Positions 10,956-56,540 of a DNA stretch of 64,000 nucleotides are shown piece after piece. Within the stretch, counting starts at the first letter, position 1. The number at the start of each line of letters is the position of its first letter. Location of the stretch: NCBI GenBank assembly GCA_016927595.1, contig JAFGMI010000012.1, forward strand, positions 1 to 64,000, in the 5' to 3' direction. Under the pieces are notes generated by a model that worked only from the letters and a program-made list of their open reading frames with translations, searched no databases and was not told the origin of the DNA. Position numbers and translations under genes: made by a program. Source of the DNA: Melioribacteraceae bacterium. Lineage in GTDB: Bacteria; Bacteroidota; Ignavibacteria; Ignavibacteriales; Melioribacteraceae.

Positions 10956-10971
10956 ACATGCGGGGTCAGTA

Positions 10972-11913: not shown

Positions 11914-12311
11914 TGAAAAAGTATGGAATTTTGAACAGAAATCTGTCAAAAATAATAGCCTCAAAAGGGCACGCAGATTTACTCGTAATTTGTGACAGCG
12001 GACTTCCTATTCCCAAAAATGCAGAACTGGTTGATCTCGCTTTAACTAAAAATATACCCTCCTTTATCGATACGTTGAAGGTTGTGCTGGAGGAATTTCA
12101 GGTTGAAAAAGCAGTTATTGCCACTGAGCTTTACCAGAATAAAAAAATGGTGGATGAAATTTCTTCGATGTTGAATGGCACATTAATAGAAAATGTAGAT
12201 CACGAAAATTTCAAAGAAATTACGAGGAATGGTGCAAACGTATCTTTTGTTAGAACCGGCGAAGCAACTCCATATGCTAATATAATTCTTTTTTCGGGCG
12301 TAACATTTTAA
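11913..12311 (+). CDS. rbsD: D-ribose pyranase (RbsD/FucU family)
   Basis: 132 residues, normal for the family. It begins 'MKKYGILNRNLSKIIASKGHADLLVICDSGLPIP', with the conserved GH-D catalytic region and the C-terminal 'FVRTGEATPYANIILFSGV'. The enzyme converts beta-pyranose to beta-furanose ribose so that ribokinase can act. The start overlaps the rbsK stop, indicating translational coupling. A fucose mutarotase role cannot be excluded, but the rbsK partner favours ribose. Confidence 0.9.
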   Translation: MKKYGILNRNLSKIIASKGHADLLVICDSGLPIPKNAELVDLALTKNIPSFIDTLKVVLEEFQVEKAVIATELYQNKKMVDEISSMLNGTLIENVDHENFKEITRNGANVSFVRTGEATPYANIILFSGVTF

Positions 12312-27872: not shown

Positions 27873-27879
27873 GGACAGT

Positions 27880-29550: not shown

Positions 29551-29552
29551 AA

Positions 29553-31199: not shown

Positions 31200-31231
31200 T
31201 AAGATAATTAAGAAAGGAGAGCCAAAACGGT

Positions 31232-32773
31232 ATGCAGGAGAGCAGATTTGTATTTAAACCTGAGTTTGTTCAAAAAGGACCTGGTCCGAACCTGGGAGAT
31301 AAAGTATTGACGCTGGATGAGAATGGTGATCCCTTTAAATCGGACGCAACAATTAGTAAGGCAGGGATACAAGTAAACAGTACCGGTATGACAGACAAAT
31401 TCGCAATATCTTTCCGATGGAATGTCGAAGGGTACGGTTTTCTGTATATGCCTGCCGATAACGGTGGCAGAATGTATTCGGTCAAGGAAGATTCGGGTAA
31501 AAAATATAATATCAGTTATGAACTTTTACGGACAAGGGTCTTCAGAAATAACAGCCGTTGCGAGCAATTCAGAATTGATGGATGGGAGCCGTCCAGGGAG
31601 TGTGCTGCGTTTAAGAGCCTTGGAGAGCAGTATCTTGATGATGCTTCCAAAGCCGTAAACGATCCTGATCGTTGTGCTCATATTGCACAAAATGGGCTAA
31701 AGTACTCGCTGATGGCTGGTGAAATGATCGAAATTGAAAAATCAAGGTACGATATTTCGAGAAACGGAAGCCGTTCTGATTTTCTTTTCGGCTGCGATAC
31801 CCGTGCTTATTTTCAGATAGATCAGAAGCTTTTCTTCGATCTCTTCTCGGAATTATTCAATTACGGGACTATTACCCATTATCTGAAGGGGGATGCGATT
31901 AATTTTGAGGAGGTCGAAGGTGAAAAAAAGTTTTCCGAAAGAGACAGGCTGCTGGATGAATTGTTGAAGCGGGGGATTAAAGTGGAAGGCAGACCGCTTT
32001 ACTGGGTGCATACCTGGGTAACACCAGACTGGCTGAAAAATAAAACTTACGACCAGTTGCTGAAATATGTCGAGAGTCATGTTCGTGAGGTTGTAAAGCA
32101 TTACGGAGACAGGATTTCAGTCTGGGAAGTTGTAAATGAACTGCACGATTGGGCAAATGAGAATCAGCTTAACCATGAACAGACGATAGAACTTACAAAG
32201 CTTGCATGTGAAGTTGCAAGAGCCGAAAATCCGAGAGTAAAATTATTGGTCAACAATTGCTGCCCGTTCGCTGATTATGTTCAGGAAGGTAAATGGCATG
32301 AAAAAGAAGCAAAGTATCCCCAAAGAACTCCTCATCAGTTTATACAACAGTTGATTGATGCAGAGGTAGATTTCGATATTATCGGCGTTCAGGTTTATTT
32401 TGTTCACAGGACTTTGATTGAAGCGATCCAATCTATAGAGAGATACCAGGTATTCAACAAGAAAGTCCAGCTTGCAGAGGTTGGAGCGACGTCAAAAGGA
32501 GTTACATTGGAATTCACAGAACAGGAAAAAGATTATACCGGTCTTCCTTACGAATGGCACCGGCATTGGGACGAAGAACTGCAGGCAGATTGGCTGGAGT
32601 ACATTTTTACATATGGTTATTCGAAGAAATTTATCGAGGCTGCGAATTGGTACGATTTTGTTGATCCATACGGATTCTTAAAAAACGGTGGAATAATCAA
32701 ATCCCCTAAGGGTGATAAAAAAACGGCTGTCAGCAGACTTATCAAACTTCAAAAACAATTAAATAATACTTAG
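31232..32773 (+). CDS. GH10-like xylanase without signal peptide (array copy 4)
   Basis: 513 residues. The protein begins 'MQESRFVFKPEFVQKGPGP', which aligns with the first mature residues of copies 1-3, so there is no export signal. An in-frame stop at 31205-31207 rules out a hidden upstream signal, and AGGAGAG before the ATG supports the start. Acid/base Glu303 ('WEVVNELHDWANEN'), nucleophile Glu416 ('VQLAEVGATSKG') and 'VNNCC' (Cys343-344) are intact, so it should be active, probably on imported xylo-oligomers in the cytoplasm (inference). Confidence 0.8.
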   Translation: MQESRFVFKPEFVQKGPGPNLGDKVLTLDENGDPFKSDATISKAGIQVNSTGMTDKFAISFRWNVEGYGFLYMPADNGGRMYSVKEDSGKKYNISYELLRTRVFRNNSRCEQFRIDGWEPSRECAAFKSLGEQYLDDASKAVNDPDRCAHIAQNGLKYSLMAGEMIEIEKSRYDISRNGSRSDFLFGCDTRAYFQIDQKLFFDLFSELFNYGTITHYLKGDAINFEEVEGEKKFSERDRLLDELLKRGIKVEGRPLYWVHTWVTPDWLKNKTYDQLLKYVESHVREVVKHYGDRISVWEVVNELHDWANENQLNHEQTIELTKLACEVARAENPRVKLLVNNCCPFADYVQEGKWHEKEAKYPQRTPHQFIQQLIDAEVDFDIIGVQVYFVHRTLIEAIQSIERYQVFNKKVQLAEVGATSKGVTLEFTEQEKDYTGLPYEWHRHWDEELQADWLEYIFTYGYSKKFIEAANWYDFVDPYGFLKNGGIIKSPKGDKKTAVSRLIKLQKQLNNT

Positions 32774-32787
32774 CGGAAGGGATAACA

Positions 32788-34434
32788 ATGAAAAATTCCA
32801 GACGAGGTTTCATAAAAAAAGGGTTGGTGGGAGCTGCCGCTCTAACTTTTCCCGGCTTCAGTTTTAATAACAGTAAGAATATCATCGTACCAGCGAAGTC
32901 TTTTTCGATGAAAGCATTTCCACACGAATGGATGGGAAGACCCAGCTGGATATATCTGACCGATTCAAATCAGGATCCTTTTGTTGCTGATGTTAAATTC
33001 ACGGATTCAGGTTTTGAGATCGCCAGGGATAAGGTTACAGAAGGTTTTACAGTTAATGCGCTTTGGTACGTAGAAGGATTCGGGAATGTTGTTCTCCAGG
33101 CGGATAACGGCGGAGATTTTTTTAAATCAGATAATTTTAATTCCGGATCAAATTTAAATCATGAATTTGCCAGGTCAAGGATACACAGGAACAGATCAGT
33201 AAAAAGTCGTTATGAGAAAACCGGTACCAGGTTCTCAAATGAGGTGAACAATCTCGTAAATATTGCTGAAGAAATGTTCGGTGATTCTATTAAGAAGCTG
33301 GGTTCTTCTGATGAAAGCGCAAAGTTCGCAGATAAATCGCTCTACTACAGTCTTTGGGCAGGTGAGAAGATCGAACTTGAACATGCCCGTTCGCAAATTC
33401 TTAAAAATAAAAGAAACGACCATGTGCATTTTGGCTGTGAGACGAGACAATACATTTGGGCAAAATCTGAAGAACTGACTAAAAGATTCGTTGAACTTTT
33501 TAACTTTGCGACAATAACCCATTATGTATGGGATACCTGGTACGAACTCTTTGAACCACGTGAAGGTGTATATAATTGGGGAGTAAAAGACAACATTACT
33601 AATTGGCTGGTTGAAAACAATATTGAAATTGAAGGCAGACCGCTCTTCTGGTTTCATCCGGTGGTCACACCTGATTGGTTGAAGAATAAAAATTTCGGTC
33701 AGTTAAAAACTTATGTTGAAAAACATACGAGAAATTTGGTTTCTCATTATAAGGATAAAGTACACTCGTGGGAGGTTGTTAATGAGTATCACGACTGGGC
33801 GAACATACACAAACACAGCGAAGATGAAATAACAGAAATTGTCAGACTAGCCTGTGATACTACAAAAGATACGAATCCAAAGGTTAAACGTCTCCTGAAC
33901 AACTGCTGTCCCTGGGCTGAATATGCTGCCAGAGGCAGAACAGCCCGTTCAAAGGTACAATCTGACAGAAAGTTACGATCACCGAGGAAATTTATTAAAG
34001 ATCTTACTGAAGCCGGAGTTGAGTACGATATTCTCGGCATTCAAATTTATTTTCCTATGCGCGATCTGAGCGATATAATGCGAAAAGTAGAGGAATTCGA
34101 AAAATTCGGAAAACCCATTTATATTACCGAGATGGGCGCATCAGCTGGTTATTACGAACAGGGAATCAAACTTGATGAGATTGATATCGAGGATAAACCC
34201 TACGATTGGCATAGAAGATGGGATGAGGAACTTCAGGCAGACTGGCTGGAACAGGTCTATACAATGTATTATTCAAGAGATCAGATAAAAGGAATCAACT
34301 GGTATGATTTCTCTGATTTCAGACCTTTTATACGTCATGGCGGACTCGTCAGGGAGGACGCATCAACCAAAAGGTCTTTTCACAGGCTAAAAGAACTTTT
34401 GGAATCGTGGGGCAGACTTCCGAAGAATCAGTAA
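32788..34434 (+). CDS. GH10-like endo-xylanase, Tat-like signal (array copy 5, most divergent)
   Basis: 548 residues. Signal 'MKNSRRGFIKKGLVGAAALT' has a full SRRxFxK Tat motif. The N-terminal module is more divergent ('LWYVEGFGNVVLQADNGGD'). The barrel has Glu333 ('SWEVVNEYHDWAN') and Glu448 ('IYITEMGASAGY') and a 'VVTPDWL' cleft motif; 'LNNCC' is at Cys373-374, again 40 after the acid/base. GGAAGGGA precedes the start. It ends the array and is followed by a 76-82 base gap before the GH13 gene. Confidence 0.8.
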   Translation: MKNSRRGFIKKGLVGAAALTFPGFSFNNSKNIIVPAKSFSMKAFPHEWMGRPSWIYLTDSNQDPFVADVKFTDSGFEIARDKVTEGFTVNALWYVEGFGNVVLQADNGGDFFKSDNFNSGSNLNHEFARSRIHRNRSVKSRYEKTGTRFSNEVNNLVNIAEEMFGDSIKKLGSSDESAKFADKSLYYSLWAGEKIELEHARSQILKNKRNDHVHFGCETRQYIWAKSEELTKRFVELFNFATITHYVWDTWYELFEPREGVYNWGVKDNITNWLVENNIEIEGRPLFWFHPVVTPDWLKNKNFGQLKTYVEKHTRNLVSHYKDKVHSWEVVNEYHDWANIHKHSEDEITEIVRLACDTTKDTNPKVKRLLNNCCPWAEYAARGRTARSKVQSDRKLRSPRKFIKDLTEAGVEYDILGIQIYFPMRDLSDIMRKVEEFEKFGKPIYITEMGASAGYYEQGIKLDEIDIEDKPYDWHRRWDEELQADWLEQVYTMYYSRDQIKGINWYDFSDFRPFIRHGGLVREDASTKRSFHRLKELLESWGRLPKNQ

Positions 34435-44023: not shown

Positions 44024-45121
44024 ATGGCAGAAGTGATATTAAAGAATGTAACAAAGATTTATGACAATGGTGTAAAAGCCGTTAACAGCGCAAATATTGA
44101 AATAAAAGACAAGGAATTTGTAGTTCTTGTCGGTCCGTCAGGCTGCGGCAAATCAACTACACTAAGAATGATTGCAGGACTAGAAGAAATAAGCAGTGGG
44201 GAACTTTATATCGATAACGAATTAATGAATAACGTGCCGCCGAAAAATAGAAATATTGCAATGGTTTTCCAGAATTATGCGCTGTATCCTCACATGACGG
44301 TTTATGAGAATATGTCTTTCGGTTTGAAGCTGAGAAAATTTAAAAAGTCCGACATTGATGAACGTGTCAAAAATGCTGCTGAGATACTTGGGATTACCGA
44401 TCTTCTGGACAGGCGACCGAAAGAACTTTCGGGCGGGCAGAGGCAGCGGGTTGCAGTTGGCAGAGCGATTGTAAGAAAACCGAAAGTGTTCTTATTTGAT
44501 GAACCTCTCAGTAATCTTGACGCAAAACTTCGGGTTCAGATGAGAACGGAAATATCTAAGCTGCATTCAACACTGGGTGTAACAATGATTTACGTTACAC
44601 ACGATCAAACCGAAGCAATGACGATGGGTGACCGGATTGTGATCATGAAAGATGGTGATATTCTTCAGATTGATACTCCGCTTAATCTATATAATAAACC
44701 AAGGAATAGGTTTGTTGCTGGCTTTATCGGTTCGCCCTCAATGAATTTTATTAAAGGAAGTATTACGGATGAGGTTAATCCGAGGTTTGTTGCATCAGAT
44801 AACAAACTCACACTATCGTTCCCCTCGAGACTTGAAAAAGCTGTAAACGGATCCCGTGGTAAAAAGGTAATACTTGGAATCCGACCAGAGGATATATCAA
44901 TAAAACATAATACAGAGCCGGAGAATAATGTGAGAGTTAGTCTGGAAGTCGTAGAGCCGATGGGCAATGAAATATTTATTTATTTTAAACTTTGTGGGGA
45001 GCAGATTACTTCAAGAATTCCCGCTGATCGGGAATATCAGGAAAGGGAAGAAATTGATCTCGCTGTAAATATCAATAAAGTACATCTTTTTGATGGAATA
45101 ACAGAAGAAGCGATAATATAG
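44024..45121 (+). CDS. ABC sugar transporter ATP-binding protein (MalK/UgpC type)
   Basis: 365 residues. Walker A 'GPSGCGKST', Q-loop 'MVFQNYALYPHMTV', signature 'LSGGQRQRVAVGRAIV', Walker B 'VFLFDEPLSNLDAKL' and H-loop 'YVTHDQTEAMTMGD' are all intact. The C-terminal OB/TOBE region ('ILGIRPEDISIK') marks the MalK/UgpC group that energises sugar uptake. No permease genes are in the window; the matching binding protein is at 46853. Membrane components must be elsewhere. Confidence 0.92.
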   Translation: MAEVILKNVTKIYDNGVKAVNSANIEIKDKEFVVLVGPSGCGKSTTLRMIAGLEEISSGELYIDNELMNNVPPKNRNIAMVFQNYALYPHMTVYENMSFGLKLRKFKKSDIDERVKNAAEILGITDLLDRRPKELSGGQRQRVAVGRAIVRKPKVFLFDEPLSNLDAKLRVQMRTEISKLHSTLGVTMIYVTHDQTEAMTMGDRIVIMKDGDILQIDTPLNLYNKPRNRFVAGFIGSPSMNFIKGSITDEVNPRFVASDNKLTLSFPSRLEKAVNGSRGKKVILGIRPEDISIKHNTEPENNVRVSLEVVEPMGNEIFIYFKLCGEQITSRIPADREYQEREEIDLAVNINKVHLFDGITEEAII

Positions 45122-45131
45122 GATGTTTTAT

Positions 45132-45161
45132 CTTTGATTCTAATTTTGTAATCAAAGGAGG
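45132..45161 (+). promoter_or_regulatory. Hairpin touching the ribosome-binding site of the dioxygenase-like gene
   Basis: A perfect 8-bp inverted repeat CTTTGATT (45132-45139) / AATCAAAG (45150-45157) with a 10-base loop. The last G of the stem is the first base of the strong Shine-Dalgarno GGAGG at 45157-45161, just before the ATG at 45167. It could influence translation or 3' end formation of the upstream gene; neither is shown. Confidence 0.45.
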
Positions 45162-45166
45162 TTGAA

Positions 45167-45925
45167 ATGGAAGGGCTTAAAAATATAGAACTTACGAAAG
45201 ATCGAATCGAAAAGTACAAAGAGGAAGGCTTTTTCATCCTGAATAAAGTCATCCCCGAGGAAGTACTGGAATCGTTAAGAACTGAGTGCGATTATTTAAT
45301 CGACCAGCAGAATAAGGAAATGGACAAGCTTGGTGTGGATGAGTTAAATCTGAGCCGAAGAAACAGCAGGTATTTTGTTTTTCTTGCCTATAAGGAACGA
45401 CCTCAGCTCGGGGAATTTATTTTCAGCAGTCTGATGGAATCACTATGTAAAGCAACAATAGGCGACACTGCTTTCCTGTTCTGGGAACAGTTTGTAGTTA
45501 AAAGTACCGATCCGAAAGGGGCAGAATTTACATGGCATCAGGATTCCGGATATGTTGATGGAGTGCATAAACCTTATGTGAACTGCTGGATACCACTGGA
45601 TGATGTGAGCGAGGAAAACGGTACTATTTATCTGCTGCCATATACACTGGCGGGCACAAAAGAAAAAATTGAACATAAAATCATGGAAGGATCTAAAGAC
45701 CGAGTAGGATACTTTGGTAAAGAAAAAGGTATTCCGGTCATTGCCGAAGCAGGATCTATTGCAGTATTTTCAAGTACAGTTTTTCACCGCTCCGGTCCTA
45801 ATAACACTAAAAACCTGCGACGTGCCTGGGCGCTGCAGTATTCACCTGAAGTGATATATGAACCCGACGGCTCACTCAAGGGATTGGATGAGCTTTTCAT
45901 AAAGGATGGTAATAGGGTAAAATAA
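45167..45925 (+). CDS. Phytanoyl-CoA dioxygenase (PhyH) family protein
   Basis: 252 residues. Non-haem iron ligands are visible: HxD in 'TWHQDSGYVDG' and the distal His in 'VFHRSGPNNTKNLRRAW', whose Arg can bind 2-oxoglutarate. 'NCWIPLDDVSEENGTIYLLP' is also typical of the family. Such enzymes hydroxylate small molecules with O2 and 2-oxoglutarate. Its place among sugar-use genes suggests a sugar-derived or glycoside substrate (inference). The presence of an O2-dependent enzyme near a glycyl radical enzyme is notable. Confidence 0.82.
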   Translation: MEGLKNIELTKDRIEKYKEEGFFILNKVIPEEVLESLRTECDYLIDQQNKEMDKLGVDELNLSRRNSRYFVFLAYKERPQLGEFIFSSLMESLCKATIGDTAFLFWEQFVVKSTDPKGAEFTWHQDSGYVDGVHKPYVNCWIPLDDVSEENGTIYLLPYTLAGTKEKIEHKIMEGSKDRVGYFGKEKGIPVIAEAGSIAVFSSTVFHRSGPNNTKNLRRAWALQYSPEVIYEPDGSLKGLDELFIKDGNRVK

Positions 45926-45980
45926 TAATTCCATCATTAATCAAAAGCGAGTTACAGCGTTAACAAACTTAAACAGGATC

Positions 45981-46856
45981 ATGAAACAGAAAATTCTCCT
46001 TGATACGGATATAGGCACTGATGTGGATGACGCTTTAGCTTTAGCTTATCTTTTGATGCATCCTGACTGCGAATTACTGGGAATAACAACTGTCACCGGT
46101 GAGTCAGATAAACGTGCGATGCTAGCCAGTTCACTTTGTAAAATCGCCGGGAAAGATATTCCGATTTTCCCCGGGATCGAAAACCCGCTGATAATTGAAC
46201 AGCTACAAAAAAAAGCTCAACAGGCGAGAGCGCTGGACAAATGGTCTCATGAAGTTTCTTTCCCCAGATCTAATGCAATTGAATTTTTACGGAATACAAT
46301 AAGAGAACATCCCGGTGAAGTAACGTTATTGACCATTGCACCATTAACGAATATAGGTGTGTTATTTACAATCGATCCTGAAATACCTTCTCTGCTAAAG
46401 AGTATTGTCATAATGGCGGGCAAATTCGATCTGAATGCTGAAGCTTATAGTAATATTGAATGGAATGCTATGGGGGACTATCATGCAACCGAGATTGTTT
46501 ACAGAGCAAAAGTGAAGCAGCACAGATCAATTGGTATAGATGTTACGTCTAGAGTTACAATGAATTCACATCAGTTCAGGGATTTCTGTAAACACGATCT
46601 GCTTAAGCCTGTTCTTGATTTTTCACAGATATGGTTCGAGGAGTGGGATGTTATTACATTCCACGATCCTCTTGCAGCAGCCACAATTTTTAATGACAAA
46701 ATCTGCACATTCGAAAGAGGGAATGTGACAATTGAACTCGAGGATAAACAACATCGCGGGATGACTCTCTGGAAACCCGAAAACGGTATGCACGAAGTTG
46801 CGGTTCACGTGAACCCGGAAGTATTTTTTAATGAATATATGTCCGTATTCAAATGA
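45981..46856 (+). CDS. Nucleoside hydrolase (IunH family)
   Basis: 291 residues. The calcium and ribose-binding motif 'LLDTDIGTDVDDALALAYLL' is complete, with 'LTIAPLTNIG' and the later His-Asp in 'VITFHDPLAAA'. It splits purine or pyrimidine ribonucleosides into base and ribose. Ribose could then feed RbsD and RbsK encoded at 10972-12311. The stop overlaps the next start (ATGA). Confidence 0.9.
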   Translation: MKQKILLDTDIGTDVDDALALAYLLMHPDCELLGITTVTGESDKRAMLASSLCKIAGKDIPIFPGIENPLIIEQLQKKAQQARALDKWSHEVSFPRSNAIEFLRNTIREHPGEVTLLTIAPLTNIGVLFTIDPEIPSLLKSIVIMAGKFDLNAEAYSNIEWNAMGDYHATEIVYRAKVKQHRSIGIDVTSRVTMNSHQFRDFCKHDLLKPVLDFSQIWFEEWDVITFHDPLAAATIFNDKICTFERGNVTIELEDKQHRGMTLWKPENGMHEVAVHVNPEVFFNEYMSVFK

Positions 46857-48175
46857 ATGGTGTTTTAAAGCGGTTTTATTTAGTCGAAGCAAGCCTCAAA
46901 CTGCTTTCACTAGTTCTGATGTCAGCTTTTATTTCCTGCTCAAATAATGATCATGAAGAAAAAGTTAAATTGGTATTCTGGCACAGCTTTGTAGCAAACT
47001 CACTGCCGGCTCTGGAAAAATTGGTTGCAGATTATGAAGCTCAAAATCCTGATGTAGATATTATCGCACAATATGTTCCGTCAGGAGATCCTCTCGTTCA
47101 GAAATTGATTACAGCTATACAGAGCAGTACATCACCGGATATAGCCTGGGTTCATTCTGATTTTCTCGACAAACTGGTCTCTGCGGATGCTATATTTAAG
47201 ATGGATCATTTCATTAATGGAAAAAACGGATTTACCATAGATGAGTTAAAAGATTTTTTCCCTCAGTTAATTGAGAATGCAAAATGGCGTGATACATTAT
47301 ATGCACTGCCGATGGAAGCGACTACACTCGCGCTTATTTACAATATTGATCTTCTGGAGGCAGCGGGAATAAATACGGGACCACCCGGTAATTGGGATGA
47401 TTTAAAAGACTACGTTGATAAGCTTACAATTGATAAAGACGGCGACGGTAAGTATGATCAGTATGGTTTTTATGTGCCGGTATTTCCGGCTTCGGGTCCG
47501 TTGAGCGTATGGATGTTGCTTCAGTGGGAACCGTTTTTATGGCAGGCAGGCGGGTGCCTGGTAAATGAAAATCAAACGGCACTGATGTATAACGATACTT
47601 CAGGTGTGAAAGCTCTTAAACTCTGGAAGGAACTCTTCGACCGGCAGGACTTCTCCCGATTCTCGTTGAGTCATGATGTTGGATTCGCGTCCGGTTCAAT
47701 TGCGATGGTAATGGATGGACCGTGGAATCTTCCACTCTACAGAAAGATAAGCGCTTTCCGATGGGGAGTTGCTTCACTACCAATGGGACCAGCGAAGTCA
47801 GCAACTTATCTTGCGGGTGAGCATCTCACGATATTCAAGAGTTCCCGTAATCCCGATGAAGCATGGCGCTTCGTTAAATGGTTCACCGAGGCTGAGCAGC
47901 AGGCGGAGTTCTCAATCGTATCCGGTTACCTCCCCGTACGCAAATCAAGTCTTGCTATCCAATCCTATAAAGATTATTTGAAAACAGATCCTTTCCTGGC
48001 TGCATTTATCGATCAAATAAAAATAGCTCAAGCCAGAGCAAGTATTGATTACCACAAAATTGAAATAAACCAGTTAATTGCCGGAGCAATTGAAAAAACG
48101 CTTCTGGGTAATGTAAGTCCGGAAAAATCTCTTAATGAAGCCGTTAAACTTTCGGCAGTATACATGAATAAATAG
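46853..48175 (+). CDS. ABC sugar-binding lipoprotein
   Basis: 440 residues. Lipobox 'LMSAFISCS' (Cys29) anchors it to the membrane. Family 1 solute-binding features: 'KLVFWHSFVANSLPALEKLV', 'ADYEAQNPDVDI', 'PDIAWVHSDFLDKLV' and 'YALPMEATTLALIYN'. It captures oligosaccharides or polyol phosphates for ABC uptake, probably with the ATPase at 44024. The permeases are not present next to it. Translationally coupled to the nucleoside hydrolase. Confidence 0.88.
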   Translation: MNGVLKRFYLVEASLKLLSLVLMSAFISCSNNDHEEKVKLVFWHSFVANSLPALEKLVADYEAQNPDVDIIAQYVPSGDPLVQKLITAIQSSTSPDIAWVHSDFLDKLVSADAIFKMDHFINGKNGFTIDELKDFFPQLIENAKWRDTLYALPMEATTLALIYNIDLLEAAGINTGPPGNWDDLKDYVDKLTIDKDGDGKYDQYGFYVPVFPASGPLSVWMLLQWEPFLWQAGGCLVNENQTALMYNDTSGVKALKLWKELFDRQDFSRFSLSHDVGFASGSIAMVMDGPWNLPLYRKISAFRWGVASLPMGPAKSATYLAGEHLTIFKSSRNPDEAWRFVKWFTEAEQQAEFSIVSGYLPVRKSSLAIQSYKDYLKTDPFLAAFIDQIKIAQARASIDYHKIEINQLIAGAIEKTLLGNVSPEKSLNEAVKLSAVYMNK

Positions 48176-48206: not shown

Positions 48207-49196
48207 ATGCGCTCAGTTACAAAATATGTCCTTCTGATAGCTTTTTATTTTACTACTATTAATCTTTTTGCTCAATGCGGGTGTTTGTCAAAAGGAAAAT
48301 TGATTTCTGAGCAGGAAAGTAATCGCAGAATTAAAAGACTATTTTCCGGCGGATTCTTTACAGAAGGACCGTCTGTGGATTCCAAAGGTCTTGTGTATTT
48401 TACTGACCTTACTTTTACTGTTGAAACGGGTAATGAAGCCGGCATTATTTATAGGTATTCTCCTGAATATGATACGACAATCATATATCGTTCGCCAAGC
48501 GGCATGGCAAACGGTCTTTTCATTTTGAATGATACTCTCTATGCTGCAGAAGGAGCTGATAAAGGCGGTCGCAGAATAAGTAAAACTGATTTGACCAGCG
48601 GCAGAAGCCGGATCGTAACGGATTTATTTGCCGGTTTACATCTTAACTCACCTAATGATATTGTGGTTGCAAAAAGCGGTGAAATCTATTTTACCGATCC
48701 CAGATATATAGGCAGCGAGAAAATTGAGCAGCCTGTAAATGGCGTATACAGGATAAACAGTGATAATTCCGTTGAACTGCTGATTGAAAATATCAGCCAG
48801 CCGAATGGAATAGCATTAACCTTTGACGGTAAGTATCTGTTTGTGGGCTGTTTAGACGAGAGTGTTGACACGAACGTTTATTCTCCAGTTATGAAAGGCA
48901 GGTTTATCGCCAGGTATAAATTATTAAATAATAAAGCTGTGTTTGACCGGATCGTAGTGGAATATTCAAGTGAGTCGGGTCCCGACGGTATGCTGATAAG
49001 CGATGACCGGATGCTCTTTGTAGCTTTAAGAAACGAATCCAGTCCGGCAGTAGTAAAGTATGACTTTGAAGGTACCGAAGTCGAGAGAATATATCTGCCT
49101 GAAGTACCGAGTAATGTTTCACTCGGGACAGGGAAATACAAAGATATACTTTATATAACAGCAGGAGGAAGTTTGTATTCAACAGAAATTGAATAA
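48207..49196 (+). CDS. Secreted SMP-30/gluconolactonase-like protein
   Basis: 329 residues with a signal peptide ending near 'TTINLFAQ'. Beta-propeller motifs: 'FTEGPSVDSKGLVYFTDL', 'LNSPNDIVVAKSGEIYFTDP' (metal-binding Asn-Asp) and 'SQPNGIALTFDGKYLFVG'. Family members hydrolyse aldonolactones with a divalent metal. Here it likely opens lactones made by sugar oxidation in the periplasm. Confidence 0.87.
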   Translation: MRSVTKYVLLIAFYFTTINLFAQCGCLSKGKLISEQESNRRIKRLFSGGFFTEGPSVDSKGLVYFTDLTFTVETGNEAGIIYRYSPEYDTTIIYRSPSGMANGLFILNDTLYAAEGADKGGRRISKTDLTSGRSRIVTDLFAGLHLNSPNDIVVAKSGEIYFTDPRYIGSEKIEQPVNGVYRINSDNSVELLIENISQPNGIALTFDGKYLFVGCLDESVDTNVYSPVMKGRFIARYKLLNNKAVFDRIVVEYSSESGPDGMLISDDRMLFVALRNESSPAVVKYDFEGTEVERIYLPEVPSNVSLGTGKYKDILYITAGGSLYSTEIE

Positions 49197-49232: not shown

Positions 49233-51407
49233 ATGTCCATTCGAATATTATTGTCTTTCTTTATATACATGTGTTATGTGTTGTCAGCAGTCGGCTCGGA
49301 CAGCCTTACAAAATACATAAATCCATTCATCGGCACTGCTAACGGAGGCAACACTTTCCCCGGAGCCGTTGTTCCGTGGGGAATGATTTCGTTGAGTCCG
49401 CATAATTCGCCGGGATCACCTTCCGGATACATTGCCGGAGAAAAATACTTCTACGGCATAGGTTCAACACATCTGAGCGGAACGGGATGCGCTGACCTTG
49501 GCGGCATCATTGTTTCTTTCGCTTCAACATTAAGTACAAAGCCTGAAGAATATAAGGCAGTTTATTCGGAAGAATACGCAGAGCCTGGTTATTATTCTGC
49601 ACGGCTGCCTGATTTAAATGTAAAGCTCGAAACAACCGTTTCGAACAGGAGCGGTTTTATAAGAATATCGGCTGATGAGGACACGGAACTGTTTTTGTTG
49701 ATTGATGCCGGCAGAAGCCTGGCTATAACGGGCGGTGGATCTGTATCCGTTAAGTCCCCAAGACATATTGAGGGTTATAATATCAGCGGCGGATTTTGTG
49801 GTGAATCTAACCGACAAACGGTTTATTTTAGTTCTGAACTTAGTCAGAGTCCCATTGAAAGAGGTGTTTGGCATGATGATGAAATTCTAGAAAGTTACTT
49901 CACCGAAGCTGTTGATACCTCAGCAGGAGCATGGGTAAGAATAAAAATTCATAAGAGTAAACCTGCGCTCATTAAGATCGGTATATCGTATACCCGTGTA
50001 AAAAATGCTCAGATGAATATGCATAAGGAAATACCGGACTGGGATTTTGCAAAGGTCAGACGTGAGGCAAGGATGAAATGGGAAGAGCAACTCCGGAGAA
50101 TAATTGTTTCGGGCGGCAGCGAAACCGATAAAGTAATGTTTTATACATCAGTTTACCATATGCTTATTCATCCAAATATAATCTCCGATACTAATGGAGA
50201 ATATCCAATGATGGGTCGCCATCAGCTCGGGAAATATACCGGGAAGGAACGCTATTCAGTATTCTCTTTATGGGATACTTATCGCACTTTGCATCCTTTC
50301 CTGATGCTCGTTTATCCTGAAGTACAATCTGCAATTATTCAAACAATGTTGGATATGTACAGAGAATCCGGTTTCTTGCCGAAATGGGAACTTGCAGGGA
50401 ATGAAACCTATATGATGGTGGGTGACGCATCTTCAATAGTTATTGCGGATTCATACATAAAAGGTATAAGGGACTTCAACGAAAATGAAGCGATGAAAGC
50501 AATGCTTAAACCGGTACTTTTCGATGAAGGACAGAATGCCCCGCCTATCAGGGCAGGGTATAATCAACTTCTAAAGTATGGTTACATTCCCTTTGAACAG
50601 GATACATCAGATGAATGGTGGGTCTGGGGACCTGTTTCAACTTCACTTGAATATAATTTAAACGATTGGTGCATAGCAGTAATGGCGGATACCTTAGGTC
50701 GACAGGATATCGCTGACAAATTCTATGAAAAATCAATTTACTATGCAAACATTTTTGATACAACCACATTGTTCATGCGTCCCAGACTGAAGAACGGCAG
50801 TTGGCTAACACCATTTGATTCAACAGCTACCGAAGGATCAGGTTACTGGGCTGGATCGGGAGGTCCGGGATATGTTGAAGGAAACGCCTGGAATTATACC
50901 TGGTTTGTTCCGCATGACATCGAGGGCTTAATTAAATTGTTCGGAGGTGAGGGTAAATTTTTCTCGAAACTTGAACGCTGTTTTGAAGAGAACCATTTCA
51001 CGATTAATAATGAGCCTGATATAGCTTACCCTTTTCTATTTACATATATTGATGGAAAAGAAAGCATATCAACCGATCTAGTGGAAAAAATTATTGATGA
51101 GGATTTCGGAACGGGGAGTAACGGTCTTCCGGGCAACGATGATTGCGGCACTATATCAGGCTGGCTTGCATTTTCTATGCTGGGTCTCTATCCTGATTGT
51201 CCGGCAAAATCTGTATATAGATTGGTCACTCCCAGGTTTGCGGAAGTAACGATCAAGCTTAATACAGATTATTACTCTGGTAAAGAGCTCTTAATTCGTA
51301 AAGTTGAAAATAAATCAGGTGAAATTAGTTTCAATGGATTTGTTTTGGATGGATATGAGATAAGTCATGAAAAATTGGTAGGAGGTGGAGTTCTGCAATT
51401 CGATTGA
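49233..51407 (+). CDS. GH92-family alpha-mannosidase-like enzyme
   Basis: 724 residues with a signal peptide ('SIRILLSFFIYMCYVLSAVG'). It begins with the GH92 signature 'YINPFIGTANGGNTFPGAVV' and 'SLSPHNSPGSPSGY', and has the family C-terminal motif 'GLPGNDDCGTISGWLAFSML'. 'SLWDTYRTLHPFLMLV' and 'GYVEGNAWNYTWFVPHD' are also typical. GH92 enzymes are calcium-dependent exo-alpha-mannosidases. Secreted or periplasmic. It converges with the minus-strand activase gene; the stops are about 5 bases apart. Confidence 0.92.
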   Translation: MSIRILLSFFIYMCYVLSAVGSDSLTKYINPFIGTANGGNTFPGAVVPWGMISLSPHNSPGSPSGYIAGEKYFYGIGSTHLSGTGCADLGGIIVSFASTLSTKPEEYKAVYSEEYAEPGYYSARLPDLNVKLETTVSNRSGFIRISADEDTELFLLIDAGRSLAITGGGSVSVKSPRHIEGYNISGGFCGESNRQTVYFSSELSQSPIERGVWHDDEILESYFTEAVDTSAGAWVRIKIHKSKPALIKIGISYTRVKNAQMNMHKEIPDWDFAKVRREARMKWEEQLRRIIVSGGSETDKVMFYTSVYHMLIHPNIISDTNGEYPMMGRHQLGKYTGKERYSVFSLWDTYRTLHPFLMLVYPEVQSAIIQTMLDMYRESGFLPKWELAGNETYMMVGDASSIVIADSYIKGIRDFNENEAMKAMLKPVLFDEGQNAPPIRAGYNQLLKYGYIPFEQDTSDEWWVWGPVSTSLEYNLNDWCIAVMADTLGRQDIADKFYEKSIYYANIFDTTTLFMRPRLKNGSWLTPFDSTATEGSGYWAGSGGPGYVEGNAWNYTWFVPHDIEGLIKLFGGEGKFFSKLERCFEENHFTINNEPDIAYPFLFTYIDGKESISTDLVEKIIDEDFGTGSNGLPGNDDCGTISGWLAFSMLGLYPDCPAKSVYRLVTPRFAEVTIKLNTDYYSGKELLIRKVENKSGEISFNGFVLDGYEISHEKLVGGGVLQFD

Positions 51408-51412
51408 ATGTA

Positions 51413-52315
51413 TCATCCAAATGTTACATTTGTACATCCTAATCGTGTGAGTGAATTGATCCACATTTTTTTTTCCGATTCTGATACTGAACTCAGATCT
51501 TTTAGAGGATTTACAAGCCCAATTTTTTCGGCTTTATCTCTTCCTGTATTATGATAAGCCATAATTTCTATTAATTTGATTGATGGGAATTTTTTTTGCA
51601 GCCCGGCTATTCCACGGAAATGTTTTTCATTATCGTTAAAACCAGGAATTAATGGGCATCGTAATATTACAGAAGCACCATTCTCAAGAATAAGTTCCAG
51701 GTTTTTGAGGATTTGTTTATTGGAAACACCCGTATAGTTTTTATGGTTTTCGGGATCAGTTTCTTTGTAATCAAATAAAAACAAATCCACATATGGCAGG
51801 ACTTTCATGAATCGTTGCTCAGTGCTTTGACCGCATGTTTCGATAGCTGTATGGATACCGGATTCTTTGGCTCTTTTGAGAATTTCAAATGTGAAATCAA
51901 ATTGAGCCATCGGTTCGCCTCCCGAAATAGTGAGCCCGCCACCGCTGTTTTCGAAGTACTTTCGATCCTTATTTACGGTTTCCATTATTTCTTCAACAGA
52001 TTCGGAATATCCGATTATGGAAAGAGCTCCGGCAGGACAATTCTCTACACATTCTTCGGAAGTTCTGCAAAGATCGAAATTTATTATATGTTTTCCATCG
52101 ATAATCTGATGAACATTATTTGGGCAAGACTTTTCGCAGTTTCCGCAGAGCGTACAAAGATTACTATTAAAAGATAGCTGTGGTTCGAATGATTTTGCCT
52201 CGGGATTGTGACACCATAGACAATCCAGCGGACAACCTTTCAGGAATATTGTTGTCCTTATTCCCGGACCGTCATGCAGAGAAAACCTGTGTATGTCATA
52301 TACTAATCCGTTCAA
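51413..52315 (-). CDS. Glycyl radical enzyme activase (radical SAM)
   Basis: 300 residues. Radical SAM cluster CX3CX2C at Cys28-Cys32-Cys35 in 'GPGIRTTIFLKGCPLDCLWC', then two ferredoxin-type cysteine groups ('LCTLCGNCEKSCP' and 'CRTSEECVENCP'), then 'GGGLTISGGEPMAQ' (SAM binding). Two extra Fe-S clusters are typical of activases for dehydratase- or decarboxylase-type glycyl radical enzymes rather than of pyruvate formate-lyase activase, which lacks them. It lies 12 bases downstream of its presumed target at 52328-54562. Confidence 0.93.
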   Translation of the reverse strand: MNGLVYDIHRFSLHDGPGIRTTIFLKGCPLDCLWCHNPEAKSFEPQLSFNSNLCTLCGNCEKSCPNNVHQIIDGKHIINFDLCRTSEECVENCPAGALSIIGYSESVEEIMETVNKDRKYFENSGGGLTISGGEPMAQFDFTFEILKRAKESGIHTAIETCGQSTEQRFMKVLPYVDLFLFDYKETDPENHKNYTGVSNKQILKNLELILENGASVILRCPLIPGFNDNEKHFRGIAGLQKKFPSIKLIEIMAYHNTGRDKAEKIGLVNPLKDLSSVSESEKKMWINSLTRLGCTNVTFG

Positions 52316-52327
52316 TTCAGATGCATT

Positions 52328-54562
52328 CTAGTATAAGGTTCTCGTCAGAATATCTTCCTGTATATCCCTGGCAAGCTCAACAAACCTGGCGCTGAAACCT
52401 CCGACTCTTACAAAAATATGTTGGTACTTTTCAGGCTCTTTCATAGCTGACCGCAGATCATCCTTGTCTACAACCGTAATCATCGCCTGAGCGCCTCCGT
52501 TGTCGAAATATGTCTGTAACAGCGATTTGAGTATATCTCTCTTTTCTCTGAACATGTTTTTACTGAACTTCAGGTTCTGTACCGCACCTGCATGAATGTC
52601 GGTTCTCGGTTTTACCAGGGAATTCAACATGGCAGTCACACCGTTTTTATCGTAACCGCTGGTCGGATTATTTCCGTTGTTCATGGACATACACGACTTT
52701 CTTCCGTCTGCGGATGCTGATGTTGAGTGACCCATCAGCGTATTTGCGCTGTTATTTATATTTACTACCAGATAGGAATGGAGCCCAACTCTGTCTTTTT
52801 GTTCTCTTACATATGTACAAACATGTTCATGTACCTTTGACACCATATTATCTGCTTCATTGTTATCGTTGCCGTATTTAGGCACATCGAGAAGTTTTTT
52901 ACGCAGTAATTCATAGCCCTCAAAATCCGAGTCGAGTGCCTGCAATAATTCTCCCTTCGGAACTGAATTGGATTCATATACTAGTTTTTTAATGGCGAGA
53001 AGACTGTCGGAAGTATTAGTATTACCGTAGGTTTCAAGTGTACCGCCAAGATACTTTATGCCTCCCGAGAACATCCCTTTTCCAGAATCAAGACATTCAC
53101 CATATAACATACTCATAAATAAAAACGGAGCTGTTTCACCAGCTACTTTATATTCGAGCACTTCCTGTTCAGCCATTAAGCGGACAAAGTGCTCAACCTG
53201 TTTATTGTATGCATTCCAAAGATCCCCGAATGATTTAAAGCTATTAAAATCACCAAGTGCCAGTCCCGCTTCTTTACCTGTCATTGGATCAATTCCGTTA
53301 TGTAGTGTAACCTCAAGTGCTTTCAGAAGATTTATAACTCCGCTTGGAGTTCCGAAACTCTCGTGCTCGATGATGTACTCACCGCATCCGTAGGGGACAT
53401 ATTGTTCAGCATCCAGCTTGTTAAACTCAAATGCTTTTACAACCGAGCCTATGTTAACATCATCATTATAAAGTATGGGGAAAGTTCTTCCTTCGCCGAT
53501 AACATCCAAAGCCTTTTCATATACTTCGGGATTCATTCCCTTATAGATTCTTAACGAAAGCTGAGGTTCGATTGCAAGAACTGTTCGTGAAGCCTCCAGA
53601 GCGAGCATTGCAAAACGGTCGGCGTTCTTTTCATTACGTCTACCTCTGCCACCTATAATTACTCTGTTGTGAACAACTGTGTGACGATCAACCATTAATT
53701 TCCAAAGAGACTGAACTAACCGGAGAGCTTCCTCCTCCGTGATTATACCATTATCGATATCACTTGCAAGGAAATCACCCATATACATATCCATTCTGCC
53801 GTAGTTTCTTACATCACCAAGGAAAGTGTATAACCAGAACAATTGCAATGCTTCATGAAATGTTCTGGGTTTTGAGATTTTAACAGCTTCGAGAACGTTT
53901 AATAGTTTCTCAAGATCGCTTATTCTTGACTGACCGGTTTCTTTGCCGAGTAATTGTTTAACATTGTCTATATAAAAATCAATTACATTCACAAAAACAT
54001 CGAGGGCAATCAGCAAGCCTCTGTAGAAATCTGGATCTTTACTTTCTGCATCTGCAGATTCCAGGAGTTTCGTTATCTTGTCCCTGAGTCCGGGTATTCC
54101 GAGTTTAAGCAGTGTACTGAAATCCGGGGTTCCGCCGGTTAATCTGTATAATGGGAAAGCGATTCCCGACTGATTCATCCAGTCATCACTCGGCAGGTAC
54201 TTTTTCATTTCCTCAGTATATCTGCTGCGAAGTTTGAAAGATGTGTTTTCAGTCGACCAGAATTCGAGTATCTCTTCAATTTCAGTACGTTGCTCAGTTG
54301 AGTAATCGTTTTCTTTCAGATGCTTTTCTATTTCTGTTGTTAAACAATAATAGCCGAAAGCTGTTGGACCCCATTCGTCGGGACTAAAGCCGATTAAACC
54401 ATGTTGAATTCTTCCGGCAAGCAAGTCTCCTTCGGTAATACCATCAAAATAGTCCGGATACTGAGCCTTTAAACACATTGCCTCTCTTATAGCAGGATGT
54501 GCATTAATGTATTCTTTATAAGCAGAAGTAAATTTAAGTTCGGTAAAAAAATTGTATTTCAT
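52328..54562 (-). CDS. Glycyl radical enzyme of unassigned substrate
   Basis: 744 residues. The C-terminal radical loop is 'RVGGFSARFVELARD' with the predicted radical at Gly722. The active-site loop is 'VPYGCGEYIIEHE': thiyl Cys393 and Glu395 give the GCxE arrangement of dehydratase/lyase-type members, and the Cys-Cys pair of pyruvate formate-lyase is absent. The more common form is GCVE; here the residue between is Gly and Tyr follows. 'GHSTSASADGRKS' matches a conserved barrel segment. It probably performs radical C-O, C-C or C-N cleavage of a polyol or sugar-derived molecule without oxygen. No Shine-Dalgarno is visible, and no microcompartment shell genes are nearby. Divergent from an AraC regulator. 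Confidence 0.88.
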   Translation of the reverse strand: MKYNFFTELKFTSAYKEYINAHPAIREAMCLKAQYPDYFDGITEGDLLAGRIQHGLIGFSPDEWGPTAFGYYCLTTEIEKHLKENDYSTEQRTEIEEILEFWSTENTSFKLRSRYTEEMKKYLPSDDWMNQSGIAFPLYRLTGGTPDFSTLLKLGIPGLRDKITKLLESADAESKDPDFYRGLLIALDVFVNVIDFYIDNVKQLLGKETGQSRISDLEKLLNVLEAVKISKPRTFHEALQLFWLYTFLGDVRNYGRMDMYMGDFLASDIDNGIITEEEALRLVQSLWKLMVDRHTVVHNRVIIGGRGRRNEKNADRFAMLALEASRTVLAIEPQLSLRIYKGMNPEVYEKALDVIGEGRTFPILYNDDVNIGSVVKAFEFNKLDAEQYVPYGCGEYIIEHESFGTPSGVINLLKALEVTLHNGIDPMTGKEAGLALGDFNSFKSFGDLWNAYNKQVEHFVRLMAEQEVLEYKVAGETAPFLFMSMLYGECLDSGKGMFSGGIKYLGGTLETYGNTNTSDSLLAIKKLVYESNSVPKGELLQALDSDFEGYELLRKKLLDVPKYGNDNNEADNMVSKVHEHVCTYVREQKDRVGLHSYLVVNINNSANTLMGHSTSASADGRKSCMSMNNGNNPTSGYDKNGVTAMLNSLVKPRTDIHAGAVQNLKFSKNMFREKRDILKSLLQTYFDNGGAQAMITVVDKDDLRSAMKEPEKYQHIFVRVGGFSARFVELARDIQEDILTRTLY

Positions 54563-54563
54563 G

Positions 54564-54669
54564 ATATTGATATATATTGATTATTTATTATATTAGACAA
54601 TCGTAAAATACGATAAAATATTGCTATATCTTGTTATATGTTGATATTGTCATTGTACTATATTGATAT
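54564..54669. promoter_or_regulatory. Divergent control region with repeated ATATTGATAT sites and an inverted repeat
   Basis: The ~108 bases between the glycyl radical enzyme and araC starts are very AT-rich. The decamer ATATTGATAT occurs at 54564-54573 and 54660-54669, next to each start codon, with related copies at 54574-54583 and 54639-54649. A perfect inverted repeat ATCGT-N5-ACGAT lies at 54600-54614, near the middle. These look like regulator binding sites, most simply for the adjacent AraC protein (inference). Confidence 0.5.
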
Positions 54670-54670
54670 T

Positions 54671-55531
54671 ATGAAGAAAAGTTTAAAAATATACTCAGAA
54701 GAAATCATCGATCGCGAGAGCGAACTTCATTATGCCAGGCATAAGTCGCTTCGTGATATAACCACGGAGCATACGCACAATTTTTACGAACTTTTTCTTA
54801 TCACTTCAGGGAGTCTTGTTCATCAAGTCAACGGCATAAGGCAGGTGTTATATTCAGGTTCACTGGTTTTTATGAGACCAAGTGATATTCACTTTTATTC
54901 GAAGCATAAGAATTCAGAGTCTGAATTAATTAATATAGCCTTCCCGAGATCTACTCTTGATGATCTGCTGAACTTTATGGGTGAGGGCTTCGATACTGAA
55001 CCATTACTGTTTGGAAAATTTCCCCCGTCAATCCATCTGCCTGAAATCGAGAAGGAACTACTGGTAAGCAAGATGGAAAAACTTAATTTGGTAAACAGGG
55101 AATTTAAAAAAGAAATCAGGACTCAATTGCGGATTCTTCTGGTTGAAATATTCTCAAGATATTTCATAAACATAAATAATAATTCAGATAACTCTGTTCC
55201 TTCCTGGCTTGATGTTTTAAGAGAAGAAATGTTGAAGAAAGAAAATTTTATAGCAGGATTTAAACAGATGCAGAATCTGGCAAACCGGTCTAAAGAACAC
55301 ATATGCAGAGAATTCAAGAAGCATTTTAACCTGACTCCCACTGAATTCATTAATGACCTTAGGTTAAATTTTGCTTCAAACCTTCTGACTAACAGCGACG
55401 AGGGTATACCGTATATTTCTATGGAAGCCGGGTTTGAAAATCTGAGTCACTTTTATCACCTCTTTAAGAAAAAGTACGGTGTTTCACCGGCAAAGTTCAG
55501 AACAGAGAATCAAAAAGTAGTAATACCATAA
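54671..55531 (+). CDS. AraC-family transcriptional regulator with cupin sensor domain
   Basis: About 286 residues. The N-terminal cupin domain ('EHTHNFYELFLITSGSLVHQ', 'GSLVFMRPSDIHFY') would sense a sugar or metabolite. The C-terminal double HTH is complete: 'KEHICREFKKHFNLTPTEFI' and 'FENLSHFYHLFKKKYGVSPA'. The start at 54671 matches the family better than the ATG at 54638; neither has a clear ribosome site. It most likely controls the divergent glycyl radical genes and the aldo/keto reductase that follows. Confidence 0.87.
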   Translation: MKKSLKIYSEEIIDRESELHYARHKSLRDITTEHTHNFYELFLITSGSLVHQVNGIRQVLYSGSLVFMRPSDIHFYSKHKNSESELINIAFPRSTLDDLLNFMGEGFDTEPLLFGKFPPSIHLPEIEKELLVSKMEKLNLVNREFKKEIRTQLRILLVEIFSRYFININNNSDNSVPSWLDVLREEMLKKENFIAGFKQMQNLANRSKEHICREFKKHFNLTPTEFINDLRLNFASNLLTNSDEGIPYISMEAGFENLSHFYHLFKKKYGVSPAKFRTENQKVVIP

Positions 55532-55544
55532 AAAAGGAGAAGAT

Positions 55545-56540
55545 ATGGAATACAGATTTTTAGGTAAATCAGGTTTAAGGATTTCAGCTTTATCATTCGG
55601 AGCATGGGTAACCTTTCATGAACAGTATGGCGAGGACCTGGCATACAACTGCATGAAGGAGGCTTACGATTCCGGTGTAAATTTTTTCGATAATGCCGAA
55701 GTATATGCTTCAGGCAATGCCGAAATTATAATGGGGAATGTGATTAAAAAAGCCGGATGGAAAAGATCCGATCTTGTGATTTCCACGAAGATCTTTTGGG
55801 GAGGTAAAGGACCGAACGATACCGGTTTATCCAGAAAGCATATATATGAAGGTACAAGCGCATCGTTAAAAAGACTGCAGATGGATTATGTTGATTTAAT
55901 ATTCTGTCACAGACCGGATATTCATACACCAATCGAGGAAACAGTGTGGGCAATGAATCAATTAATTCAGCAGGGAAAAGCGCTTTATTGGGGCACCAGC
56001 GAGTGGAATTCCGGACAAATTCTCGAAGCCTATCATATTGCTAGAAGAGAACATCTCGTACCTCCGCTGATGGAACAGCCAGAATATAATATGTTCAGAC
56101 GGGATAAAGTTGAGAAAGACTATATTAAGCTTTACGAACTTTTTGGTCTTGGTACTACAATTTGGAGCCCGCTGGCGAGCGGAATCTTAACAGGTAAATA
56201 CAATGATGGTATTCCCGATGGAACAAGAATACATTTACCTAATTACGAGTGGCTAAAGAATATAGTGCTCAGTGAGGAAGGGCAGTCAAAAATTGAAAAG
56301 GTTAGAAAATTAAAACCCCTTGCGGATGAAATCGGAATTTCTCAGGCAGAAATGGGTCTGGCATGGTGTCTTAAAAATCCTAAAGTAAGTACAGTTATAA
56401 CAGGTGCTTCGAAACCGGAGCAAGTTAAAGAAAACATGAAGGCGCTCGATGCAGTTGAAAAACTAACGGATGAAGTAATGGAACGCATTGAGGAAATACT
56501 TCAGAACAAACCGGCTCAGGATTGGGATTTCCGTGACTGA
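55545..56540 (+). CDS. Aldo/keto reductase, Kv-beta-like subtype
   Basis: 331 residues. '[19 protein letters not shown]' (with Asn in place of the usual Thr after Asp), '[20 protein letters not shown]', 'LIFCHRPD' and '[13 protein letters not shown]' fit the potassium-channel beta-subunit/YghZ-like group of aldo/keto reductases. Strong AAGGAGA precedes the start. It follows araC by 13 bases and may handle the aldehyde or ketone made by the glycyl radical enzyme (inference). Confidence 0.88.

Follow-up and report, generated by a model that had tools for sequence, protein, structure and literature searches.

A predicted glycyl radical eliminase with a GCGEY cysteine loop in a carbohydrate locus of a Melioribacteraceae bacterium

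The GCGEY enzyme among known glycyl radical enzymes

On what does a glycyl radical enzyme (GRE) act when its cysteine loop reads GCGEY, and is that loop the mark of one gene or of a family? The question is raised by a gene in positions 1 to 64,000 of contig JAFGMI010000012.1 (assembly GCA_016927595.1), a 64,000-nucleotide stretch of a Melioribacteraceae genome that is referred to below as the window. A first-pass annotation of this DNA had placed the encoded enzyme on the dehydratase/lyase side of its superfamily and not with pyruvate formate-lyase (PFL). The reading preferred here, with a probability of about 0.6, is that it is an eliminase-type GRE of a separate family that acts on a polyhydroxylated, sugar-derived substrate. 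The features that carry this reading are listed first.

52328-54562, minus strand: GRE of the GC[G/T]E family, 744-residue open reading frame (ORF), assigned by Pfam, AlphaFold2 model and tree
53375-53389, minus strand: Cys loop GCGEY (Cys393, Glu395), from the translation
52385-52408, minus strand: glycyl radical loop RVGGFSAR (Gly722), from the translation
53663-53665, minus strand: Arg300, invariant in the family (92/92)
52751-52756, minus strand: Asn603-Asn604, invariant in the family (92/92)
51413-52315, minus strand: radical-SAM GRE activase, 300 residues (NCBIfam TIGR02494, 334.1 bits against a cut-off of 174.35)

Translation confirmed the length of 744 residues and placed Cys393 and Glu395 (GCGEY) and Gly722 (RVGGF) where the first-pass annotation had put them. 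The superfamily domains are present (PF02901, 377.6 bits; PF01228, 78.6 bits), and the protein combines a glycyl radical domain, a PFL-like barrel and an adjacent radical-SAM activase; its AlphaFold2 model, built with 47 sequences as input, had a pLDDT of 94.4 and a pTM of 0.93. In the accessible part of PMC7077986, a Cys-X-Glu motif is described as conserved among GRE eliminases, with no other strictly conserved sequence outside the Cys and Gly loops. Given that this motif is present as Cys393-Gly394-Glu395, the enzyme is placed on the eliminase side, away from PFL, as had been proposed; neither the Cys-Cys pair of PFL nor a PFL-level model score was found. The enzyme had also been called short, which holds mildly: its clade has a median of 761 residues and a range of 714-829, against 765-831 in 15 outgroup GREs.

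No NCBIfam GRE equivalog cut-off was reached by the window GRE. Its scores were 284.7 bits (cut-off 1100) for HypD, the trans-4-hydroxy-L-proline dehydratase, 274.1 (1050) for CutC, 272.9 (1000) for HpsG, 276.3 (1000) for HpfG and 210.5 (1109) for PflD, and its best NCBIfam match, with 325.7 bits (678.2), was a broad subfamily model, PFL2-3. Solved GREs headed the fold lists of both Foldseek and VIA. The window GRE shares 20-28% identity with those that are eliminases, decarboxylases or X-succinate synthases, 18-19% with PFL structures and 10-12% with class III ribonucleotide reductases; judged by identity, none of the solved structures listed belongs to the family of the window GRE. First by Foldseek was the B12-independent glycerol dehydratase of Clostridium butyricum (1r8w; E 1.7e-44), which supports an eliminase-type enzyme, and first by VIA was an Archaeoglobus GRE (2f3o; Z 43.0, rmsd 3.1, 712 aligned residues), with others close behind.

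In a FastTree phylogeny that included Escherichia coli YbiW and PflD, HypD-like proteins and other GREs, 92 members from many phyla formed one clade with a support of 0.938, and the window GRE had also fallen in its own clade in an earlier version with 80 members. The outgroup of 15 GREs is narrow, with HypD-like Cys loops in 11. Neither by the NCBIfam models, nor among solved structures, nor in the tree did the window GRE group closely with a characterised enzyme. By these comparisons it appears to work as an eliminase, lies outside every characterised GRE subfamily tested, and is assigned to a separate family for which no characterised member was found. Likewise, no description of the family was found in the open-licence PMC literature, as judged from titles and the beginnings of abstracts among the matches listed. 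RefSeq names two relatives simply "pyruvate formate lyase family protein".

The family is widespread. Within the phylum, 26 of 395 genomes gave a match at E 1e-60, seven of them (the window's own genome included) at 50-100% identity and the rest at no more than 34%. A scan of an 84,980-species collection returned 135 relatives, of which 80 were kept; one of the two peptide patterns used contained GCGEY, so that this sample leans towards the motif. Profile searches located members in 4 of 344 genomes from the order that contains a Paludibacter metagenome-assembled genome (L063), 9 of 299 from the family that contains Eisenbergiella (L056) and 2 of 247 from the order that contains Citrobacter (L097), counts that include the search centre and some loci already in the sample; the members newly added likewise have GCGE or GCTE. 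Members are found in Lachnospiraceae, a Parabacteroides distasonis record, Vibrio, Citrobacter, Verrucomicrobia and Ignavibacteria. The Citrobacter GRE gene had no match in E. coli genomes at "distant" sensitivity; in phage records there were four matches, of 26-32% identity only.

Two further groups were noted in the tree. Sister to the 92-member clade is a second, odd GRE encoded beside the family GRE in two loci (L093:12876-15116, plus strand; L099:5246-7543, plus strand); the two copies are 47% identical and have the radical loop RVTGF and a Cys loop, GCNW, that lacks the Glu of the Cys-X-Glu motif. A subclade with a support of 1.0 comprises L134 (13099-16184; the P. distasonis record), L157, L158, L159, L160 and L162, with the Cys loops GCTEF (three), GCGEM (one) and GCGEF (two) and the radical loop RV[SA]G[FY]SAVF; a NanE-like epimerase gene is near the GRE in five of the six.

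Active-site residues across the family

Glu395, Arg300, Arg308, Pro406, Asn603, Asn604 and Gly722 were invariant in all 92 members, residue 721 was Gly in 86, and residue 394 was Gly in 89 members, the other three having Thr. Given the constancy of Glu395 and Gly722 and the predominance of Gly394, GCGEY is not a chance variant and, on the alignment, is a trait of the family rather than a peculiarity of the window gene. Arg300 was found in none of the 15 outgroup GREs. Two segments are also shorter than in the outgroup: 240-256 has 17 residues in 91 of 92 members, against 23-24 (∼7 shorter), and 276-304 has 29 residues in 85 of 92, against 42-44 (∼14 shorter). The aminoacyl radical enzymes described in the accessible part of PMC11528403 are similar in being unusual GRE homologues for which new chemistry is predicted; there the glycine is replaced, whereas Gly722 is retained throughout the present family.

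Comparison with HypD (6vxc) revealed a shared fold, the Cys-X-Glu motif and an Arg256-X-Asp258 pair, at only 29% identity to the HypD copy of the same genome. That copy is a true trans-4-hydroxyproline dehydratase (L121, contig C55, 51103-53454; 1311.5 bits, cut-off 1100) and served to transfer, by alignment, the HypD numbering taken from the accessible part of PMC7077986; the pocket positions given here accordingly derive from sequence alignment and not from model geometry. None of five HypD residues is kept: His160 falls at Gly144, Ser334 in a deletion, Asp339 at Val297, Phe340 at His298 (90 of the 92 members have Asn, Asp or His here) and Tyr450 at Val409. HypD Asp278 corresponds to Asp250 in the window GRE, but most relatives, 65 of 92, have Gly there. 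The Pro-Thr-Thr strand on which Thr645 is expected aligns with Asn603-Asn604-Ser605. The substrate residues known from HypD differ throughout, beyond the GCGEY loop. Arg300 shares a strand with the Phe340 position and lies two residues past it, and is therefore likely to face in the same direction. With Arg300, Asn603 and Asn604 aligned to strands that line the HypD pocket, the family's pocket may be polar and suited to a polyol or an anion, as the preferred reading would have it.

The His that stands beside the Cys-X-Glu Glu, a trait common to the outgroup GREs compared but not named as defining for eliminases in the accessible part of PMC7077986, was not found at its place in the window GRE. 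In the same source, HypD His160 tunes this Glu, and the H160Q variant is inactive. The placement of His160 moves by one residue between alignments, and the family was counted at both positions: His was present at residue 144 in none of the 92 members and at 145 in five (L066, L076, L078, L079 and L095), whereas all 15 outgroup GREs have it.

Glycerol dehydratase (1r8w) resembles the window GRE in its whole-length fold (TM 0.89 by query), its Cys-X-Glu motif and its glycyl radical domain, and differs in sequence (26% identity) and in having GCVE where the window GRE has GCGE. In a by-eye inspection of the pairwise alignment, none of its substrate residues (His164, His281, Ser282, Tyr339, Asp447 and Tyr640) was seen to be kept, so that the window GRE lacks the diol-binding His/Asp/Ser/Tyr set of glycerol and 1,2-propanediol dehydratases.

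Candidate reactions and the genes that bear on them

In the general eliminase scheme set out in the accessible part of PMC7077986, a radical on Gly gives a Cys thiyl that abstracts a carbinol hydrogen with the help of Glu, and a substituent is lost. By analogy, the activase would generate a radical on Gly722, from which a thiyl radical would form on Cys393 and abstract hydrogen from the substrate at a carbinol carbon, while Glu395 would accept or position the proton of that carbinol hydroxyl. The resulting ketyl-type radical would eject a neighbouring oxygen substituent, either hydroxyl or ether oxygen, and leave a deoxy-carbonyl product that a linked aldo-keto reductase could reduce. The reaction would probably be C-O bond cleavage in a sugar-derived compound. 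Aldo-keto reductase genes occurred in 8 of 85 loci; such an enzyme is a possible carbonyl reductase of the pathway and would fit this role in the window's clade. Given that His is not at its usual place, the proton path would have to differ from that of the usual eliminase.

The counts of neighbouring genes refer to a distance of 6 genes in 85 of 92 loci, a set that is not identical with the 92 proteins of the tree. Seven loci (L069, L082, L134, L152, L157, L158 and L159) were dropped on failing the ORF or strict motif test, and three (L153, L155 and L164) had been dropped beforehand as lying on contigs already counted; the NanE cases given below accordingly draw on loci outside this count as well. 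Only the longest ORF was retained when ORFs were called, so that small or overlapping genes are missed, and the counts are of profile hits, only some of them confirmed by Pfam. A fructose-type phosphotransferase system (PTS) was present in 14 of the 85 loci, with Vibrio and Citrobacter among its carriers, and a GntR regulator in 15; sugar kinases were among the carbohydrate neighbours in several clades. Different clades have different sugar settings. The sugar- or polyol-derived substrate that the first-pass annotation had called plausible is compatible with these genes and remains a candidate. The interest of the family lies in its coherence, with no characterised member found, substrate residues that differ throughout and neighbours that point to sugars. 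Its most compact setting is the Citrobacter island (L097), which consists of GntR, PTS, GRE and activase genes only, flanked by genes that looked unrelated by eye; this four-gene cassette makes the substrate question directly testable.

Several points weigh against the preferred reading. Neighbour sets differ between clades, and therefore one substrate for all members is unlikely. The carbohydrate-active enzyme genes among the neighbours may partly mirror genomes rich in such genes, as the counts are raw and without a matched background. The HypD-type His is missing from its place, so that most members lack the usual acid-base pairing and may use a different chemistry. Pro406 stands, by eye, where glycerol dehydratase presumably has Asp447. 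Confidence in an eliminase acting on a sugar-derived substrate is also slightly lowered because in five members a His is found at the next position and because HypD-like enzymes make up most of the outgroup.

A tentative alternative is that the enzyme is a radical ether lyase that opens a cyclic or O-substituted sugar, such as an anhydro-alditol or a glycosidic or O-alkyl ether (in the PTS clades, a phosphorylated one), and that a PhyH oxygenase would be its counterpart for cleaving that bond under oxic conditions. YbiW and PflD (8id7 and 8id0), which in the accessible part of PMC12441222 act on 1,5-anhydroglucitol-6-phosphate and 1,5-anhydromannitol-6-phosphate, offer a precedent with sugar substrates. 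PflD is PTS-linked, as are the Vibrio and Citrobacter family members, and the layout of the Citrobacter cassette resembles frwBC-pflDC; however, no aldolase gene was recognised in that cassette, and the window GRE lies outside the YbiW and PflD clades at 26-28% identity and lacks the His that both retain. In an observation that goes beyond the first-pass annotation, the oxygenase shares an operon with the GRE in some relatives: PhyH stands directly upstream of the GRE in a Persicobacter locus (L133; 12 bp) and in L061 (15 bp). PhyH was present in 8 of 85 loci, so that most have none within 6 genes. With a different seed it was found in 9 of 80 at a distance of up to 5 genes; such counts, and those for IUNH below, shift slightly with the seed. 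Genes like uroporphyrinogen decarboxylase (URO-D), whose superfamily includes methyltransferases, were found in 7 of 85. It is a speculative and unlikely extension that the whole family comprises anaerobic radical ether or glycoside lyases acting on C-O bonds of sugar derivatives that are also open to PhyH, and that in some clades a single operon encodes both enzymes and serves as an oxygen switch; the displaced or lost eliminase His would then signify a different proton-transfer scheme. Should the substrate prove to be an anhydro-, methylated or glycosidic sugar, an anaerobic carbohydrate pathway would be added.

It is rather unlikely that the GRE is a sugar acid or sugar phosphate dehydratase, in which case an aldose would be oxidised to a lactone by GSDH or a Gfo/Idh oxidoreductase, opened by an SMP-30/gluconolactonase-like (SGL) protein, imported and dehydrated by the GRE, with Arg300 or Arg308 binding the anion. 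SGL and Gfo/Idh genes in 6 and 14 of 85 loci, GSDH in the L041/L034 and L088 clusters, and the invariance of both arginines are consistent with such a route. Nevertheless, iron-sulphur or enolase-type dehydratases carry out sugar-acid dehydration without a radical, the Citrobacter cassette has no SGL gene, and the reach of the arginines to a substrate is deduced from alignment only.

More doubtful is a C-N lyase or other amino-sugar step, which would concern at least the NanE-linked clade. A NanE-like epimerase is encoded near the GRE in L101, L104, L134, L157, L158, L159 and L160 (two checked by NCBIfam, one by Pfam), and a ROK kinase adjoins NanE in L134 and, as judged by eye, the GRE in L157. 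The NanE models may, however, cover other 2-epimerases, no NanE was found near the GRE in the window's clade, and the NanE-linked members L134, L157, L158, L159 and L160 fall, with L162, in one separate subclade. A variant PFL or other C-C lyase is very improbable despite the RefSeq name of the relatives, as the enzyme has a single Cys and the Cys-X-Glu Glu in place of the PFL Cys-Cys pair (C418/C419 in the accessible literature), scores 79.4 bits on the PFL model against a cut-off of 994.2, and finds PFL structures lower in the fold ranking (Z 33.6 to 28.7).

Two more specific proposals were abandoned. Mannosylglycerate as a shared substrate was dropped as unproven: the PTS proteins of Citrobacter (L097) and Vibrio (L091) had their best scores, 388 and 371 bits, on the MngA model, whose cut-off is 763, were 31-32% identical to MngA, and came close to these scores on the fructose PTS model (342 and 356 bits). 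The Vibrio Gfo/Idh protein was rejected as a 1,5-anhydrofructose reductase, with 62 bits against 187 for its best PDB match. A general mannose theme is suggestive, with GH92 in 6, GH38-like in 5, GH130 in 4 and mannose-6-phosphate isomerase-like genes in 3 of the 85 loci, as raw counts with no background control. In one locus (L113:828-7213), genes for a corrinoid protein, a URO-D-like hit, an AcsV-like corrinoid activator (273 bits, cut-off 800) and DeoC precede a GRE with the loop GCVET, which is followed by the family GRE.

The window locus and its closest relatives

The genes around the GRE and activase in the window were compared with the other loci of the phylum, some of which are cut by the 20-kb stretch; two (L032 and L033) are close relatives with GREs 92% identical.

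54638-55531, plus strand: AraC-family regulator (Pfam HTH_18), divergent, 75 bp from the GRE start
55545-56540, plus strand: aldo-keto reductase of the Kv-beta type (TIGR01293, 386.7 bits against 365.4); a copy at 73-76% identity in 4 of 6 other loci
49233-51407, plus strand: GH92 alpha-mannosidase-type hydrolase with a signal-peptide-like N terminus by eye (PF07971, 481 bits); 5 of 6 other loci
48207-49196, plus strand: SGL propeller with a signal-peptide-like N terminus by eye (PF08450, 101.9 bits); 4 of 6
46853-48175, plus strand: ABC solute-binding protein, UgpB-like (PF13416, 142 bits; UgpB model 62.4 against 411); 4 of 6
45981-46856, plus strand: nucleoside-hydrolase-family (IUNH) enzyme (PF01156, 182.4 bits); 4 of 6
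45167-45925, plus strand: PhyH-family Fe(II)/2-oxoglutarate oxygenase (PF05721, 76.4 bits); 3 of 6
44024-45121, plus strand: ABC ATPase of the UgpC/MalK type (NF008653, 489.4 bits against 432); 1 of 6

The activase had been described as a two-cluster enzyme. Its radical-SAM CX3CX2C motif is accompanied by one complete four-Cys ferredoxin motif (Cys54/57/60/64); the second motif (residues 82-93; 52037-52072, minus strand) has three Cys only (83, 89 and 93), with Ser at the remaining place. By a rough pattern applied to 68 activase ORFs from the loci, a few of which belong to other GREs, two ferredoxin motifs were found in 43 (27 with a full second motif and 16 without that Cys), a single motif in 1 and neither in 24. 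The AraC regulator, which had been regarded as dedicated, proved to have a homologue adjoining the GRE or its activase in all seven phylum loci, the window's own included. Across the same seven, GH92 was present in six, the solute-binding protein, SGL, IUNH and close aldo-keto reductase in five each, and PhyH in four; a Gfo/Idh oxidoreductase occurred in five, though not beside the window GRE. In L041, genes for a kinase (assigned by Pfam on the same place in L034), IUNH, binding protein, ATPase and PhyH run up to the AraC gene; beyond it come GRE, activase, SGL, Gfo/Idh and GH92 in succession, with gaps of at most 12 bp.

Among the subset of window ORFs scanned, no permease was recognised beside the ABC ATPase and solute-binding protein (44024-48175). 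Upstream in the same long plus-strand run, a ribokinase-type PfkB gene is followed by an RbsD/FucU homologue (10942-12311). With a limit of 6 genes, IUNH was found in 4 of 85 loci; over the whole flank it occurred in 8 of 80, and it was present in 5 of the 7 phylum loci. From IUNH, PfkB and RbsD in the window, ribose or a 2-O-methyl-nucleoside is a conceivable substrate, but nothing links it to the GRE reaction.

The absence of a microcompartment shell, claimed by the first-pass annotation, holds for the locus as far as scanned but not for the genome, which has four PF00936 matches over the cut-off in two places (C14:183736-184245 and C29:107611-108125), one of them ∼130 kb away on the same contig. 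Elsewhere in the window, 26160-34434 holds a row of five large ORFs, of which four have twin-arginine-like N termini; those scanned, three in number, matched GH10 at 53-84 bits, over the Pfam cut-off.

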